NCBI GenBank assembly: GCA_015232405.1
Contig: JADFZS010000006.1
Location: 1 to 64,000, forward strand
DNA from: Magnetococcales bacterium
GTDB lineage: Bacteria > Pseudomonadota > Magnetococcia > Magnetococcales > JADFYX01
Direction of reading: 5' to 3'
Length of the DNA: 64,000 bases
This document shows positions 18,942-50,268 of this stretch, piece by piece. The notes beneath the pieces were generated by a model, which made no database searches, was not told the DNA's origin, and saw only the letters and a program-made list of their open reading frames with translations. The position numbers were made by a program, and so were the translations under genes. Numbering within the stretch: position 1 is the stretch's first letter; the number at the start of each line of letters is the position of its first letter.

Positions 18942-20783
18942 GTGTTTATAAACCTACCATTTTTCTGGCGGATCATCCTCATAACCCTACTTTTAGGAAG
19001 TGGCTTGACCACTTTTTGGAGTAGTGTTCATGTGAAAGGGGACCATGATGAGTTAGAAAAACAGTTTTTAGATGATATGAATAACCGTGCCAGAGCCAGC
19101 CGTATCCGTTTGGATAACTATGTCAAACAGCACCACTATTCCGCAGAACTTTTTATCATTCAAAAAAGGTTTCTCAACTATCTGGAAAACAACCAACCCA
19201 TAACAGATGGGGATAGAATTCTTAATCATAAAAATACCCCATCTTGGTTTCCTGACCGTTCTGTACAGCGTATATATATTAAATCCCACCATTTTTTGCT
19301 TCTGGATTCAGCCGGAGATGTTAGGGAGAGCTATAGCAGAAGAGGGAAGATAATACCCCATGAGTTGATTGTGCGCATAAAACAGCATTCCACCATGATG
19401 CTACCAACAGAGAGTTGGTTTATTAAACAGGATGAGTCTCTGTTTTTAATCACCAGTCAATCTCTGGAAAAAGGTGGTAATCCCCTGTGGCAAAGATTGT
19501 TGCTGATTACCGAGGTGGATGATGAGTTTATACAGGCTTCCCAGGGATTGTTGGAAATAACCGATCTTTTTGCACTTTTAGATAATGAGACCCAAAAAGT
19601 AATAGTTAGCAGTGATCTTGAATATATCACAATTGGTAGCTCAATTACAGAATTGAGAAAGGACTATTTAATAGGTTCGGAAGCCTTTTTTGACTATGGT
19701 AATTCCGATGTAATTCTAAAAATGGTTCTGCTAATACCCCGCCACGATTTAGAGAAACTATTGGATCAGGTTGATAATAAATCCATGAAACAGGTGGTGC
19801 TAATTAGTGCAACGTTTATTGTAACTTTTATTCTGGTGTTTTATTGGTTTATCAAAAATCTCGATATATTTACCAAAAAAATGGTCACTTTTTCCAAAAT
19901 CAAGTTGGGAATTGATGCTCCCATCGCTGCCCCAGGTGGCCCCATGGAGCGGGTGCAAAATCAGTTTAAAATATTATCTGAGGCAATATTACAAGCAAGA
20001 GAGCGGGAAAAATTCTCTCAGATTCAACTGGCTAAATCAGAGATGATGGCAGCTCTTGGTGATCTTGTGGCAGGTGTTGCACACGAAATCAACACCCCTC
20101 TAGGCACGGGTTTTACCTCATCTAGCTTTTTAAATGGACAGACAAAAACAGTAAAAACCGCATTTGAAGAGCAAAAACTGACCCGTTCGGAGCTTGAAGC
20201 CTATTTTGAAATGGCGACTGAATCAACAATGTTGATAGAAAAAAATCTAGCACGGGCCAGCGATCTCATCCGTAGCTTTAAGATGGTTGCAGTTGATCAA
20301 GGACGCAATGACCAAAGAGTCTTTGATATGAAGAGCTATGTTGAAGAGGTATTGGTCAATTTACGTCCTAAATGGAAACGTACCAAACACACCATAAATG
20401 TCCAGTGTCCAGAAGATATATCGGTCAATAGCTATCCTGGGGCCATTTCTCAAATTATCACCAACCTTATTGTCAACTCCTTAAAACATGCCTTTAAAGA
20501 TAAAAGCGAGGGTAATATCAATATTGAAGTGAGTAAAAAGGGTGATATGGTGCTTATGCGCTATCGGGATGATGGTTGTGGTATGAGTAAAGAGAGTGTT
20601 AACAAGGTGTTTGAACCATTTTTTACTACCGCAAGAGATCAAGGTGGTAGTGGGCTGGGTATGCACATAGTGTTTAATCTTGTCACTCAAGCATTAAACG
20701 GTAATATCGAGTGTTTAAGTACTCCGGGAGAGGGAGTTTTGTTTGAGATTTTATTTCCTGCCACCATATCAAATCAAGAGTGA
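18942..20783 (+). CDS. Membrane sensor histidine kinase
   Basis: 613 aa; two TM; GDLVAGVAHEINTPLG H-box; GGSGLGMHIVFNLV ATPase. Confidence 0.88.
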   Translation: MFINLPFFWRIILITLLLGSGLTTFWSSVHVKGDHDELEKQFLDDMNNRARASRIRLDNYVKQHHYSAELFIIQKRFLNYLENNQPITDGDRILNHKNTPSWFPDRSVQRIYIKSHHFLLLDSAGDVRESYSRRGKIIPHELIVRIKQHSTMMLPTESWFIKQDESLFLITSQSLEKGGNPLWQRLLLITEVDDEFIQASQGLLEITDLFALLDNETQKVIVSSDLEYITIGSSITELRKDYLIGSEAFFDYGNSDVILKMVLLIPRHDLEKLLDQVDNKSMKQVVLISATFIVTFILVFYWFIKNLDIFTKKMVTFSKIKLGIDAPIAAPGGPMERVQNQFKILSEAILQAREREKFSQIQLAKSEMMAALGDLVAGVAHEINTPLGTGFTSSSFLNGQTKTVKTAFEEQKLTRSELEAYFEMATESTMLIEKNLARASDLIRSFKMVAVDQGRNDQRVFDMKSYVEEVLVNLRPKWKRTKHTINVQCPEDISVNSYPGAISQIITNLIVNSLKHAFKDKSEGNINIEVSKKGDMVLMRYRDDGCGMSKESVNKVFEPFFTTARDQGGSGLGMHIVFNLVTQALNGNIECLSTPGEGVLFEILFPATISNQE

Positions 20784-20796
20784 CAACTTTTACACG

Positions 20797-23700
20797 CTAT
20801 TTTTCAATATTGGCAATAATATCGTTTACGGTTTTTTTGGCTATGGGTTTATTAATATGACCATCACAGCCTGCAGCAATAGATTTTGCCTCATCTTCAA
20901 TTCTGGCGTGTGCACTTAGAGCATAAATTACATTTTTTTGTCTGCCTTGCTCTTTTTCCCACTCTCTAATCTGCCTTGTTGCCTCATGTCCATCCATACC
21001 CTCCATCTGAATATCCATTAAAATCAGATCGTAGGTGTTGCCTGTTTTAATTTTTTCAAGAGCCTGTTTTCCATCAAATACAACCTCCAACAGGTGTGGT
21101 GTGTCCTGGAGGTAAGCCTCAATAACCATGACATTTGCCTGGACATCCTCTACCAGCAATATGGAGACACCGGTAGCTGGTTCAACTCCATTTTTGTCTT
21201 TGGGGTTGTCAGCTCTGCTTGGTTGTTCATTGGTTTTATTCTGGTTGGTGTTTTGGCTGTTCAATGGTATGGAAAAATTAAAAATACTCCCTTTTCCAAG
21301 CTCACTCTCCACCCAGATATCGCCCCCCATAACCTCCACAAGTCGTTTGCTAAGGGCTAGTCCCAAACCAACACCACCATGGCGACGGGTGGATGATGAA
21401 TCGGCCTGGGTAAATGGTTTGAAGATCAATTCAACCTGTTCCTGGGAGATGCCAATTCCGCTATCCTTGACTGAAAAAAGTAGATGACCACTGTCCATTG
21501 TAGATACCCGTAGTGTTATCTCTCCACTATCGGTAAATTTGACCGCATTGCCTAAAAGGTTGAGCAAAACCTGTCTTATCCGGTTGGGATCACCTTTAAA
21601 AAAGCCAGGGGCGTTGGCATTTATGCTGAAATTCAACAAAAGCCCCTTTTTTGATGCGTTCTGGGCATTTATTTCCAAGGCATTTTTGTTGAATTCATAA
21701 AGATCAATATCTTTGTGCTCCAGTACCACCCGTCCAGACTCAACCTGTGCAAGGTTAAGGATATCATCAACAAGACTGAGCATATTCTTGCCAGCACGAT
21801 GGAGTACATTCAAACACCGCAACTGTCTCTCATCTAGATTACTCTCCAGAACCACATCAGCCATACCGAGTATGGCATTTAGAGGGGTGCGTAGTTCATG
21901 GCTCATGACAGCTAAAAATTCACTCTTGGCCCGGTTTGCACTCTCCGCTTGATCTTTTGCCTCTCTTAGTGAATTTTCAATCAGTTTGCGATCAGTTAAA
22001 TATTGGGCATTGGCAAGGGAAATAGCAGCTTGGGAACCCAATACCTTGGTCATCTCTGTTCTTTCAAAGGTAAATGCATGGGTCGCTAAATTGTTTTCCA
22101 GATATATGGCTCGGGTTACCTTGCCACCTTGGATCAATGGGGTGCAGAGTATTGATTTAGCACGGTTTTGTAAAAGATAAGGGGATTCAGAAAATCTGTG
22201 GTCCATCGTGGCATCATCAATGACAATGCTCTGGGCTGTACGGGCCACATAGTGGATTATCTCTTGGGAAACAGGAAATGTTTCAACACTCTCTATAGTG
22301 ATTTGATCTTCTGAGTAGATGTTGGCTACATCATTGCTGTTAGAAGAAAGTTCAGCAATTAGGGAGAGTTTTTCCCCATCTACAGCAATGATATAACAGC
22401 TCTCTGCCCCGGTGTTTTCAAGTATGACCCGCAGTAGTTTTTTTAATAAACTGTTGTAGTCTATCTCTTGGGAGATCGCCTGTGTTGCTTTGATAACACT
22501 TGGCAGATCTAAAGAAGCTGTAATAGGGCCGGTAGTCGAATGGATGCCATTGGTTAAATTGTCCCTTGATTTGTTCTCCACTTTTTCATCATGGGCAAGA
22601 AGGTTGGGGTAGTTTTTTTCCAGATCTTTGGTTTTGCTAACTGCCCCCCAACGCAGGTAGAGATAGCTAGCGTTACGAATGTGATAATATCCCAAATTAG
22701 AGGAGCCTTGCTGTAGATAATAACGACCAGCTAACTCAAGAGCTATAGCCTCTTCATGGATATATTGATTTTTATGGGCCTCATTGATAGCTAACTCATA
22801 ACTGTCTCTGGCGTCTCGTCCTTGACCTAGCAGTGCAAAATACTCTGCCTCAACAAGGTGTAGCTTATGTGAGTAGTTCATGGGGGCTAGTTTAGACCAG
22901 CGACGAAGTTTTTCTAAATTAAGCTCTACTTTTGCAATATGTTCGGACCTTGCTTCTGTTTCTGATTGTTGGCAGATTGCAATACGACATAGTGATTCGT
23001 AAAAAACATATAGGGCATAATAGGCAAGAGATCTGTAACTAAGAGATTTTTCATCAAACTCTGTTACTGCCTCTAAAGCTAGCTCATATTTGGCAAATAA
23101 AAATCGTAATAAAAGTTGAACTATAGCCCGTTCACAATATGTGGCTTGGGAGTCTGCCAACAGGGGTTTTTCCTCATATTCATCATAATATTCTCCCACC
23201 AAAATATAAGGTTTGGATGAGCCTCTCATGAGGTTTACCGCTGCTTGCCGGATAAATTTCGGGTTATCTTGGATAAATGTAATCTTGTGTTTTATGAATA
23301 TATTTAAGGCACACTTGGCCTCCTGTTCAACTTCGCCAAGATCTGAGCCAAATAGAAAATTGTTGAAACAGAAATGCTCCAGAGAGTAGCACATACCCTC
23401 AAAATCCCCAGTCTCTTCACTGGTTTTAAAAGCATTGTATAGGGCAGGGAGGTTCTCTTTTTTGTGATGCTCCTTCCAGTGGGCCGTTGTAACATTGTGG
23501 ACAAATAGTGCTCGTCCTTTAAGATGGGCGGTGGGAAATCTTTGCAGATAATCCATCGCCAAACGGCTAAACTTATAGGCCTCTTCTATATCATCTCTTT
23601 TGGAGCATAAATACAACCCAGCATAATCTGCCAAAGCGATAGCCGAGCCGGGGGATACACCGTGTTGAAAAATTATCTGGGCAGATTTCATCATAAAAAG

Positions 23701-26454
23701 GTAAGCCCAATTTGAACCGAGAATATTGGCAGCAGGGATAATTCTGGAAATCAGCTTTTCAATTGCCTGTTGCAGTTCATCAACCATATCCGGTAGATTA
23801 TAAAGCTCCTCAACTGAGCGCGATGCCAACAAATGTTGAGTTTTATCCCACTCCTGCTTTAAAACATCTTCATTTGGCTCCTCTTGTGGAAGTTCAACCT
23901 CCAACTCCTTTAGCATAGCTAAACCTGTTGCAAGCACCTCTGCCAAACGGAACTCAACAATATCTGCCTGTATACGAATCTCTTTGGTGTTGATACGATC
24001 TTTGGCAGATCTGGCATTGCTCTGTACACTCTGTGATAGCTGATCTAAAAGATCCGTCTCTCCAGTAAGACTGGCAGCTTGGGCTGCCATTTCATGGAGG
24101 GTCAGCATTGTTCTGTAGTGATCTTGCCATCCATTTTGGGTCAGAAAATCTATACCAATTTGAAAATAGTGTAGAGCAGGGGAGTGGGCCGATGTCAGCA
24201 TGGCTTTTTTGCCAGCTTTTAGGTTTAATTTTGCCATCTGGGGCCACTCATCCTGAGGAATCAAGGTGCGGCCATAATTTAAATGGTTAACGATGTCAAA
24301 ATAATTATCTACATTATCGTTATCGCCAACATCATCCAACAATAACCTGCCGACCTGAAGGTGAATTTGCTCTTGTCTATCTTCTGAAATGAGAGAGATA
24401 GCGGCCTGTTGAACCCGGTCGTGGACAAAGCGAAAAACCAGATCAGGATCATTGAGATATTTTGCCAGACGATATTCACCCCTCAAAGGTTGTATCAAAC
24501 CCTCTATGTGTGCAGCGATAATATGGATTGTTACATCATGGATGGTCTGGTCAGCAACAATACTCAAGGTTTTTAGATTAAATGTGTTACCTATACAGGC
24601 AGCAAGCTGTAGTATCTCTGCCACATTATGGGGTAGGGAGGTTATCTTATTTGCCATCAACTCCACAACATTGTCGGTTATCTCTTTGTTTTTTATCTCT
24701 GCTAAATCCCAAGACCATCGCTGATTTTTGTGTGAAATCAGACCCTCGCTATGTAATGTAGTGAGAAATTGGGTAAGGAAAAATGGATTTCCCTGGGTTT
24801 TGTCCTGACACAATTTAGCCAACTCGCCAACTTCATCTACTTCACAACGCAGAGTATCTGCAACCAGCTGTTCCACATCTTCCTGTTTTAGTGGCTGCAG
24901 TTTAATTGCATTTAGCTCACCCTTGATCTGACTGATAATTTTGATTGAGCGGTTAAGGGGGTGGGTCTCATCAACCTCATTATCACGATAGGCCCCTAGC
25001 AACATGAGATGTCCAATATCAGAGTCGGTTATCAGCTGCTCAATAAGACTCAGTGAAGAGAGATCCGCCCACTGTAGATCATCTATAAAAAGGGTTAATG
25101 GATGGTCATGGTGACAGAAAGTTTGGATAAGCTTTAGTAGAGTCTGGTTAAAACGGTTTTTGCTCTGTTGTGGCGGTAACTCTTGAACCTCTTGTTGTGG
25201 CCCGATTATCGCCTCAATTTCTGGGATGATATCAACGACAAGTTGACCGCTATTTCCTAAAGCCAATTGCAGACGTTTTTTTAAGATATTCAGTTTATCA
25301 GGGCTTTCAGCCAACAGTTGCAACACTAATTCATGGAAAGCTTGAATCAATGCGCTATAGGGAATATCCCTTTTGAATTGATCAAATTTACCACTTATAA
25401 ATATGCCTTGTTTATCGGTAACAGGGCGATGAATCTCCTGTATCAAAGCACTTTTGCCAACACCTGAATAGCCACAAACCAGTAAAAATTCACTGCTTCC
25501 GGCACACACCTTTGCAAAGGTCTCTAACAGTTGAGTGGTCTGCTGTTGTCGACCATAGATTTTTTTTGCTATGAGAAATCTGTCGGAAAAATCCTGCTTA
25601 CCAATTGGAAAAGAGCTAAACCCATGGCTGGTTTGCCACTGTTTTTGGCAATGTTCCAGGTCGGCCAACAATCCATGGCATGATTGATAACGCTGATCAG
25701 CCTCTTTTTGGAGCAATTTAAGGATTATTTCAGATATTGGTGCTGAAATATCAGTACGATGCTCAAGAGGAGGTTTGGGTTTTTTTGCTAAATGGGAGTG
25801 AACCAGCTCAAGGGCATCTACTCCGGCAAAAGGTGGGGTGTTGGTTAATAGATGATAGAAGGTTGCACCCAAAGAGTACAGGTCGGTGCGGTAATCCATG
25901 GGGCGATTCATCCGCCCTGTCTGTTCTGGCGAGATATACGCCAGAGTTCCCTCTAGATATTTGGGGTTACTAAATTTTGGTGTCTCCCTCGGTAACATTG
26001 TTGAGATACCAAAGTCGATAATTTTGGCGACACCGGTTTTTTTGTTCCATATTATATTGGAGGGGTTGATATCTTTATGCATAATGCAACATTCGTGAAT
26101 ATTGATTATGGCTTTACATAGTTGCAGTGCTACATTTAAAAAATCATCAATTGATAACTGACCCAAAGTCAGATGTTCCTTGAGAGAGGAGCCACCAAAA
26201 TCCTCCATCACTATCATCAAACTGTTCTGTTTTTCTTGTAGTGCGTAGGTTTGAATTATCCCTGTAATATCACGAAATTTACAGCTAGTTTCATACTCTT
26301 GTTTAAACTTGGCAAGCTCATGTGGGGTTGGAAAAACATTGTTCAGAATTTTAATAACTACTAAACGTTCACTTTCATCCAAAGCCCGATAAATTATGCT
26401 CTGGCGACTCTCATACAGTTTTTCGCGAATAGTGTAGCCAGGTATAGTTTGCAT
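20797..26454 (-). CDS. Hybrid Ser/Thr kinase - AAA ATPase - TPR-like - GAF - histidine kinase - receiver protein
   Basis: 1885 aa; HKDINPSNIIW kinase loop; GYSGVGKSALIQEI; MSHELRTPLNAILGMAD; LILMDIQMEGMDGHEATRQIR. Confidence 0.92.
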   Translation of the reverse strand: MQTIPGYTIREKLYESRQSIIYRALDESERLVVIKILNNVFPTPHELAKFKQEYETSCKFRDITGIIQTYALQEKQNSLMIVMEDFGGSSLKEHLTLGQLSIDDFLNVALQLCKAIINIHECCIMHKDINPSNIIWNKKTGVAKIIDFGISTMLPRETPKFSNPKYLEGTLAYISPEQTGRMNRPMDYRTDLYSLGATFYHLLTNTPPFAGVDALELVHSHLAKKPKPPLEHRTDISAPISEIILKLLQKEADQRYQSCHGLLADLEHCQKQWQTSHGFSSFPIGKQDFSDRFLIAKKIYGRQQQTTQLLETFAKVCAGSSEFLLVCGYSGVGKSALIQEIHRPVTDKQGIFISGKFDQFKRDIPYSALIQAFHELVLQLLAESPDKLNILKKRLQLALGNSGQLVVDIIPEIEAIIGPQQEVQELPPQQSKNRFNQTLLKLIQTFCHHDHPLTLFIDDLQWADLSSLSLIEQLITDSDIGHLMLLGAYRDNEVDETHPLNRSIKIISQIKGELNAIKLQPLKQEDVEQLVADTLRCEVDEVGELAKLCQDKTQGNPFFLTQFLTTLHSEGLISHKNQRWSWDLAEIKNKEITDNVVELMANKITSLPHNVAEILQLAACIGNTFNLKTLSIVADQTIHDVTIHIIAAHIEGLIQPLRGEYRLAKYLNDPDLVFRFVHDRVQQAAISLISEDRQEQIHLQVGRLLLDDVGDNDNVDNYFDIVNHLNYGRTLIPQDEWPQMAKLNLKAGKKAMLTSAHSPALHYFQIGIDFLTQNGWQDHYRTMLTLHEMAAQAASLTGETDLLDQLSQSVQSNARSAKDRINTKEIRIQADIVEFRLAEVLATGLAMLKELEVELPQEEPNEDVLKQEWDKTQHLLASRSVEELYNLPDMVDELQQAIEKLISRIIPAANILGSNWAYLFMMKSAQIIFQHGVSPGSAIALADYAGLYLCSKRDDIEEAYKFSRLAMDYLQRFPTAHLKGRALFVHNVTTAHWKEHHKKENLPALYNAFKTSEETGDFEGMCYSLEHFCFNNFLFGSDLGEVEQEAKCALNIFIKHKITFIQDNPKFIRQAAVNLMRGSSKPYILVGEYYDEYEEKPLLADSQATYCERAIVQLLLRFLFAKYELALEAVTEFDEKSLSYRSLAYYALYVFYESLCRIAICQQSETEARSEHIAKVELNLEKLRRWSKLAPMNYSHKLHLVEAEYFALLGQGRDARDSYELAINEAHKNQYIHEEAIALELAGRYYLQQGSSNLGYYHIRNASYLYLRWGAVSKTKDLEKNYPNLLAHDEKVENKSRDNLTNGIHSTTGPITASLDLPSVIKATQAISQEIDYNSLLKKLLRVILENTGAESCYIIAVDGEKLSLIAELSSNSNDVANIYSEDQITIESVETFPVSQEIIHYVARTAQSIVIDDATMDHRFSESPYLLQNRAKSILCTPLIQGGKVTRAIYLENNLATHAFTFERTEMTKVLGSQAAISLANAQYLTDRKLIENSLREAKDQAESANRAKSEFLAVMSHELRTPLNAILGMADVVLESNLDERQLRCLNVLHRAGKNMLSLVDDILNLAQVESGRVVLEHKDIDLYEFNKNALEINAQNASKKGLLLNFSINANAPGFFKGDPNRIRQVLLNLLGNAVKFTDSGEITLRVSTMDSGHLLFSVKDSGIGISQEQVELIFKPFTQADSSSTRRHGGVGLGLALSKRLVEVMGGDIWVESELGKGSIFNFSIPLNSQNTNQNKTNEQPSRADNPKDKNGVEPATGVSILLVEDVQANVMVIEAYLQDTPHLLEVVFDGKQALEKIKTGNTYDLILMDIQMEGMDGHEATRQIREWEKEQGRQKNVIYALSAHARIEDEAKSIAAGCDGHINKPIAKKTVNDIIANIEK

Positions 26455-26551
26455 TGGATATAAACCCTAATAAAATAGCTGCTTATAAGGATGTTAAAAT
26501 ATTGCCAAGCAGAAAGTCGTAATCTCCCCAAAACCACGACGTTTAAATATT

Positions 26552-26718
26552 ATCCTAGAAACGGCAGTTGTCAGCACGCACCTGACGCAACCTATTGATT
26601 CATCTGGCATAACAGAGCAAAGTCTCATCACCAATAAGGTGACTTCGATTTGCTCTGTTACACCAGCTAAACCAATATGTTACGCCATGTACGCACCGCC
26701 AACCGCCGTTTCTAGGAT
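26552..26718 (-). repeat. Long imperfect inverted repeat element, family 2 copy 1
   Basis: ~80-bp arms ATCCTAGAAACGGC[A/G]GTT...AACAGAGCAAA with tip TCACC-AATAA-GGTGA. Confidence 0.85.
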
Positions 26719-26849
26719 TACACCAACGAAATTGCAAAACAGGAGGTCTAGCTCTTCTACTTAAAATAGTAACTAATTAAATTTAAAGCAATTTAATAGG
26801 GAGAGCCTAACCTAAGTGTTAATAATAACATTGTACTCTAAAATTTGCT

Positions 26850-26893
26850 ATAAATCCCCTATTTTTTCCCAATGAAAAAAAATAGGGGATTTA
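26850..26893 (-). terminator. Intrinsic terminator-like hairpin
   Basis: ATAAATCCCCTATTTTTT ... AAAAAATAGGGGATTTAT, ~100 bp downstream of the minus gene ending at 26991. Confidence 0.7.
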
Positions 26894-26990
26894 TCACAGC
26901 TTTAGGTGGTAATGAATGGAAATTATCAAGGCTATCGGTGTTGTGTAAATATCTATGTACACTCTTAGAGCTAATTGTCTGAAAAAACGC

Positions 26991-27593
26991 CTAATATACC
27001 TCAAGCTCATCAAACTGCTGGATATTTTCCAAAAGCTCAATGGTTGCAGCAGAGATGGCTTTTTGGTTGGTAGATTCACGAATAATTCGACAATCTCGTA
27101 AAATTGCCCCCCATACCTCAATGTGTATGTGGTCAATCTGAGCTACCAAAACAGTGAGAGCCTCCATTGAGTTGATCTGCTCTTGGGCGATTTTTTTCAG
27201 CTCTGCGACAATATGTTCGTCTAACTCTTTATTACGCAGCTTCTCAGTGGCATCAGCTAGCATGTTGGGTGAAGGTAGCCAGCCTGTGTCTATTTGTTTG
27301 TTTCCCATACATGGGTTGACAAAATTGGAAAGAACAGTGCGCAGTGCAAACTTATTACTGCGTTTGCTGGTAATGGTTGAACGTCTTTCATAAATTGAAA
27401 AAACCACAACCAAAAAAGCACCCTGCAGACAGAAACCGATGAGTTGTGGTAACAGGCTAAGGCTAAGGTCGGTCTCGGCATAGAGGGTAAGTGTTAAAAA
27501 AGGTGCAACGGCAAAAAATATTGCCAAAAAGATTAGATATAGGGTTATGATACCTTTGAAAATTGACCTTGGCTTTTGATCTGGTATGTCCAT
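26991..27593 (-). CDS. Hypothetical two-TM protein with cytoplasmic helical C-terminus
   Basis: 200 aa; two hydrophobic segments near the N-terminus; no family recognised. Confidence 0.75.
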   Translation of the reverse strand: MDIPDQKPRSIFKGIITLYLIFLAIFFAVAPFLTLTLYAETDLSLSLLPQLIGFCLQGAFLVVVFSIYERRSTITSKRSNKFALRTVLSNFVNPCMGNKQIDTGWLPSPNMLADATEKLRNKELDEHIVAELKKIAQEQINSMEALTVLVAQIDHIHIEVWGAILRDCRIIRESTNQKAISAATIELLENIQQFDELEVY

Positions 27594-50104: not shown

Positions 50105-50268
50105 AAACTAGATCTGGTAATCGTCACCACCCACCTAGCATATCACGGGAAATATATATCACAAATAAGGTGGCAGCGATTTTTTTTGATGATACAACAG
50201 ATAAACCAATATTTTACGCTATTCAACCAACGCCAGTTGCCGAATCTAGGTTGATTAATCCAGTCTTT
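50105..50268 (-). repeat. Family 2 inverted-repeat element, copy 2 (degenerate)
   Basis: AATAAGGTGGCAGCGATTT...TAAACCAATATTTTACGC matches copy 1 right arm; CTAGATCTGG...CGAATCTAG termini. Confidence 0.7.

Follow-up and report, generated by a model that had tools for sequence, protein, structure and literature searches.

A dispersed hairpin element of Magnetococcales, probably a MITE family with IS1380-like ends, that keeps its fold on one strand

ERIC, NEMIS and the Rickettsia palindromic elements (RPE) are known palindromic repeats of bacteria, and transcripts of MITEs that form long hairpins are also known (PMC2229807, PMC10969869). In Neisseria and Yersinia, MITEs that are transcribed serve as cis-acting elements in host mRNAs and control stability or RNase III cleavage (PMC2229807, PMC10969869). 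Among IS1380-type elements, ISEcp1 has the left inverted repeat (IRL) CCTAGATTCTACGT and 5-bp flanking repeats (PMC7864471). Bacterial MITEs are usually seen as leftovers of insertion sequences with an unimportant interior, whereas in the family described here the interior appears to be the oldest and best-kept part.

The window analysed here is a stretch of 64,000 nucleotides from a Magnetococcales bacterium (contig JADFZS010000006.1, positions 1 to 64,000), in which a first-pass annotation had singled out a long hairpin and read it as the leader of a giant kinase gene. The hairpin is real and lies where it was placed, with 70-nt arms (26552-26621 and 26649-26718) that are 79% complementary and separated by a 27-nt spacer. 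Folding of both strands of 26540-26730 gave the lower energy that had been expected on the minus strand (-117.4 kcal/mol, z -16.6), compared to the plus strand (-70.8 kcal/mol, z -9.6), and 0 of 200 shuffles matched the native energy on either strand. With the R1 covariance model, which scores 178.9 bits on the minus and 94.5 bits on the plus strand, the element occupies 163 bp with CC...GG ends (26554-26716, minus strand as RNA sense). Its terminal inverted repeats are CCTAGAAACGGCGGTTG at the 5' end of the RNA sense (26700-26716, minus) and CCTAGAAACGGCAGTTG at the opposite end (26554-26570, plus). It is bordered by the target duplications ATTAT on the left (26549-26553) and ATTAC on the right (26717-26721), four of whose five bases are still equal. 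Of the inner blocks, the apical stem-loop, GUCACC-UUAUU-GGUGAU (26627-26643, minus), is conserved best across the hosts, from Magnetococcales to Lysobacterales. With position i of the 163-nt unit facing position 164-i, the 67 outer pairs of the minus strand comprise 52 Watson-Crick pairs, 11 G.U, no A.C and 4 other mismatches. The annotation had counted about 11 transitions between the arms, all in one sense, which agrees with these figures, but it overlooked the four non-transition mismatches, which are features of the family.

The element recurs with a constant length and characteristic flanks. Exactly 163 bp were found in 98 of 118 matches, and 50 of 68 copies carry an exact 5-bp flanking direct repeat of the form WTNAW, compared to 11.7 in shuffled pairings; in a second sequence set, target duplications were seen in at least 21 of 36. 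A description of the duplication as 3-bp TNA was dropped in favor of 5 bp. The terminal-repeat pattern gave 225 genome matches and its reversed control none. Like type II MITEs, the element is shorter than 500 bp, is present in many copies, has terminal inverted repeats and target-site duplications, and lacks a transposase gene. No DDE transposase gene is contained in the 163 bp, where the antisense open frame spans only 54 codons, so that the element is non-autonomous at best. From these sequence features we infer that the copy at 26554-26716 is an insertion belonging to a type II MITE family moved in trans by a transposase. Short derivatives of 44-64 bp (L066, L067, L069, L077-L082 and others) retain both ends and 5-bp target duplications. 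In the window's own genus, a single longer unit, L065 (1398 bp; G000:C277, 3121-4518), is bounded on each side by close matches to the ends; it was considered as an autonomous form and rejected, since it consists of one hairpin copy interrupted by an IS110-family element with a DEDD transposase. The IS110-family element sits at the apical loop, which recalls the targeting of palindromes by IS110/IS1111 elements.

An initial genome search returned about 40 close copies in the window's own genome (G000). A covariance model trained on 27 diverse copies gave at least 60 in this genome, and at least 57, 60, 56 and 51 in G001, G004, G015 and G045, respectively. The window itself holds a second, decayed copy (50107-50250, minus; 32 bits, E 1.9e-5), located upstream of an ABC-transporter-like ATPase gene. 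The covariance model identified carriers in 12 of 48 Magnetococcales genomes, and a phylum-wide sample added 17 carriers outside the order, all from one family. This family takes in the contig of the zetaproteobacterial locus L117, and locus L230 of the same family gave the same match; the family is evidently Mariprofundia. Named GTDB contigs with the element belong to Magnetococcales, to Zetaproteobacteria/Mariprofundus and, in a few MAG contigs, to gammaproteobacterial Lysobacterales. One contig binned as Nitrospinota (L091, JADGAW010000244.1) carries a copy very near those of Magnetococcales and is probably mis-binned or the result of a recent transfer. Pattern matches in three viral contigs were dismissed as chance, as were those in Bacilli (L103) and Bacteroidetes (L122), which fold poorly. 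Searches with blastn for carriage of the element by plasmids and phages gave no match. In Rfam the window had no match at the gathering score, with only sub-threshold matches to hairpin models, mostly miRNA.

The giant kinase gene (20797-26454, minus) encodes 1885 aa with Pkinase, AAA_16, GAF, HisKA, HATPase and Response_reg domains; its start at 26454 was correctly annotated. That the hairpin is a leader or riboregulator of this gene, as had been proposed, is extremely unlikely, even though the kinase start is 99 nt downstream of it. The kinase-side edge of the hairpin shares sequence with a weak promoter-like site (CTGACA-16-TAATAT, 9/12), so that the hairpin could at most supply a promoter, but four such sites were found where 2.1 are expected. 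The genome-wide homologue search that the annotation had suggested returned the dispersed copies counted above, which argues against a role as leader of the kinase. Moreover, the kinase is absent from the syntenic site of two congeners, G001 and G002, where the histidine kinase gene that ends at 20783 lies near the 200-aa gene at 26991-27593; the flanking genes enclose a hairpin from a different subfamily in G002 and no hairpin in G001. The kinase was either gained in the window's genome or lost in the two congeners, and is a bystander. An inverted repeat with 27-nt arms (AAATCCCCTATTTTTT ... AAAAAATAGGGGATTT, 26841-26903) lies between the 200-aa gene and the hairpin; it is possibly a two-way terminator, which would part the hairpin from the upstream transcript.

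The orientation of copies was scored relative to genes called crudely as ORFs of at least 100 aa. In co-directional spacers, 29 copies point in the same direction as the genes and 24 in the opposite one, with no significant bias; none was seen upstream or downstream of genes either, which also speaks against a leader of the kinase. Divergent spacers hold 8 copies and convergent spacers 21. Inside ORFs, antisense copies seem to be in excess (11:1), which is explained in part by a stop-free frame of the antisense strand, found in 10 of 19 sequences. Element and target duplication together make 163 + 5 = 168 bp, or 56 codons. As with Rickettsia palindromic elements, copies are found in frame within conserved genes, here on the antisense strand: L011 (G000:C111:28390-28552) in a nitrite/sulfite-reductase-like (NIR/SIR) gene, and L111 (JADFYX010000004.1, 5838-6000) in a glutamyl-tRNA-synthetase-like (GluQ-type) gene, whose protein has family matches flanking the insert on both sides. 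Copies from Mariprofundia are mostly 160-163 bp long, so the 56-codon frame is no general explanation of the length.

Comparison of 27 sequences showed that the fold is maintained across the family. Cells of the alignment were paired in 95.4% of cases, compared to 85.5% in shuffled alignments and 34-42% when partners were slid by one to three columns. Changes on both sides occurred at 30 of 64 pairs, double-change cells numbered 171 against 53 in shuffles, and the covariation score was 0.383, compared to 0.193 for shuffled and at most 0.103 for slid alignments. Covariation thus exceeds both the shuffled and the shifted controls, as in structured RNAs. Among 19 sequences of less than 90% identity, G.U pairs outnumbered A.C pairs 204 to 18, and in the outer 28 pairs of a second sequence set 78 to 15. 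In the two sets, all 19 and all 37 sequences, respectively, fold better on one and the same homologous strand. Purine-purine mismatches are conserved at columns 18, 29 and 39/41, and more weakly at 50-52, with a spacing of about 11 bp, near one turn of an A-form helix. These data support selection for a one-strand fold as the source of the wobble asymmetry. The annotation had gone further and read the asymmetry as selection for a minus-strand RNA; its one-strand part is borne out in every intact relative examined and by covariation, but single-stranded DNA competes with RNA as the folded molecule. It had also named, as a pattern that would count against selection, copies in random orientation combined with wobble pairs free of strand bias. 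Orientation to genes is random, but the strand bias is uniform.

Could such a pattern arise with no selection at all? Template switching can produce compensated changes, and quasipalindrome correction of this kind might keep the arms alike, with the wobble bias descending from a few ancestral changes. Many wobble columns are indeed shared (22, 23, 27, 45, 48, 55 and 56). Correction would, however, remove G.T and A.C equally, because a G.T on one strand reads as A.C on its complement, whereas well-paired copies contain about 11 G.U and only about 0.4 A.C per element. The wobble columns also interconvert via G.U (AT, GT, GC) across subfamilies. We therefore regard an origin free of selection as very unlikely and retain selection for the fold.

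To locate the level at which this selection acts, we compared the majority sequences of subfamilies with private mutations, defined as those carried by no more than two copies of a subfamily. Private changes turned Watson-Crick pairs into G.U in 25 cases (27.7 expected), into A.C in 14 (22.3) and into other mismatches in 45 (39.7). Structure-preserving and structure-breaking changes stood at 108:37 between subfamilies and at 40:55 among private mutations (Fisher p = 8e-7). This contrast is carried by compensated and broken pairs; on its own, the GU:AC ratio shows no difference (58:10 between and 38:11 within subfamilies, p = 0.33). In copies that have lost Watson-Crick pairs, A.C and mismatches rise and G.U stays constant. 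Since private mutations are structure-neutral and subfamily differences structure-preserving, selection would act on the propagating copies and not on each insertion. The comparison indicates that single insertions decay freely, and that the lineages founding new subfamilies keep the fold. It points to selection on spreading and not on use by the host.

The same data bear on a role of the hairpin as a cis-acting RNA in host mRNAs, selected by the host at many loci for ERIC- or NEMIS-like effects on stability or RNase III control. The Neisseria and Yersinia MITEs provide a precedent, and purine-purine mismatches every 11 bp or so would limit RNase III. Host selection on insertions is nevertheless hard to reconcile with structure-neutral private mutations, with the free gain of A.C and mismatches in decaying copies, and with orientations that show no significant bias (29:24 in co-directional spacers, and likewise upstream or downstream of genes). 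We consider such a role quite unlikely, and selection on spreading copies the better reading.

The folded molecule is more likely RNA than single-stranded DNA, because G.U makes up about 18% of the standard pairs and 37 of 44 tandem wobbles are of the 5'-UG-3'/3'-GU-5' type, both typical of RNA; these tandem motifs occupy inherited columns and are not independent of each other. Alternatively, the sense strand might fold as single-stranded DNA during transposition or replication. The DNA fold would then be under selection, for example as a means of pairing up ends that looping could not bring together over so short a distance, or as a target recognized like attC or IS200/IS605 hairpins. G.T is the best-tolerated mismatch in DNA too, and DNA folding gives -56.5 kcal/mol for the sense strand compared to -35.9 kcal/mol for the other, the same strand preference as for RNA. 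Selection on propagating copies would also fit a transposition step. IS1380 enzymes, on the other hand, are taken to act on duplex DNA, and together with the RNA-like wobbles this makes the DNA fold unlikely, though a serious competitor.

The family ends, CCTAGA[AT]NCGGC, and the 5-bp duplication are as in IS1380-family elements, which have ends starting with CC and an AT-rich duplication of 4-5 bp (the ISEcp1 repeat is TCATA). In G161, the ends of a multi-copy IS1380 (CCTAAATCCTGCAAGTG) and of the local hairpin type (CCTAGATCCTGCAAGTG) agree at 16 of 17 positions, with no convincing homology between this IS1380 and the hairpin interior. Such a co-resident insertion sequence, matching the hairpin at its ends only, was found in G161 only. 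With 52 IS1380-profile matches in 2.4 Mb, many of them near-identical copies and some arranged in tandem, that genome has seen a recent burst of IS1380 alongside the hairpin family. In other genomes, an IS1380 element of G140 has ends CCCAAATCTCGAAATA and a TTTAA duplication, and one of G045 has an ATGAA duplication. A direct search for IS1380 transposases found no element with matching ends in the window's own genus, whose sole near-complete IS1380 differs in its ends (CCCGGATATTTCATGAA), made a 4-bp duplication and is interrupted by an in-frame stop, and none in G001, G003, G032, G072, G116 or G229. A mobilizer in the window's host can thus only be inferred; perhaps it was lost or is unassembled.

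The ends of the element vary between host groups (CCTAGAAACGGC, CCTAGATCCTGC, CCAAGAACCGAC, CCCAAATCCCGA). Inner blocks such as TATTGGTT, GTCACCTTRTTGGTGAT and GAATCAAGAGGTTG can be recognized in both Magnetococcales and Mariprofundia, and the apical block as far as Lysobacterales. Judged by this distribution, the core appears older than the ends, a pattern opposite to that of an ordinary MITE: the interior is common to bacterial classes and kept as a one-strand fold while the ends change.

Our favored explanation, which we hold to be probable, is an ancient family of short, non-autonomous type II MITEs that are moved in trans by IS1380-family transposases and whose fold aids their spread. The outer ends of about 17 bp would be transposase sites that change by host with the local IS1380, and the inner core of about 130 nt would be the lineage's own, conserved as a long one-strand hairpin. 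An IS1380-type transposase would move the element by its ends, as suggested by the end match and the target duplications; the sense strand would be transcribed or otherwise become single-stranded, and the core would fold. The fold may then help source copies to spread, with fold-keeping lineages alone continuing to found subfamilies. Our data suggest a role of a folded RNA, or of a single DNA strand, in the spread of the element and not one for the kinase gene. A stronger version, in which the element is a mobile non-coding RNA whose conserved core swaps its outer 17 bp to suit the IS1380 of the host and whose fold is required for propagation, is possible but doubtful. If the 48-64-bp derivatives with intact target duplications moved by themselves, the core would not be needed for transposition. 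At the hairpin base lie two almost identical repeats of 7-8 bp, and the 48-bp form has its junction there; deletion between them could have generated this form repeatedly in place, so that the short derivatives are equivocal on the need for the core.

These results raise the question of whether the movement of a cut-and-paste element involves a folded RNA or a single DNA strand, and the covariance model of the family can be used directly to annotate genomes of Magnetococcales and Mariprofundia. In the literature searched we found no IS1380 MITE with a conserved structured core, no structured core spanning classes with host-matched IS1380 ends, and no evidence for selection on a MITE fold acting via propagation.

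Among the described systems, ERIC (IRU) of enterobacteria and Vibrio are likewise short, full-length imperfect palindromes in tens to hundreds of copies in related genera; their transcripts fold as long stem-loops and some lie inside genes (PMC2229807, PMC10969869). They differ in sequence, host group and target duplication, TA termini being tabulated for ERIC compared to the 5-bp WTNAW of this family, which adds IS1380-matching ends and a measured one-strand wobble bias and level of selection. Correia/NEMIS elements of Neisseria are also hairpin MITEs of similar size, whose RNA is cleaved by RNase III (PMC10969869), but they have TA termini and other ends, whereas the stem described here has conserved purine mismatches every 11 bp or so. 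Rickettsia palindromic elements are likewise palindromes of about 150 bp in frame within conserved genes (PMC10969869); in our family most copies are intergenic and the in-frame cases are on the antisense strand. The IS1380 type II MITEs of the ISEcp1 group share with it CC[TC][AG]GAT ends, a 5-bp AT-rich duplication, the lack of a transposase gene and similarity to an insertion sequence at the ends only.
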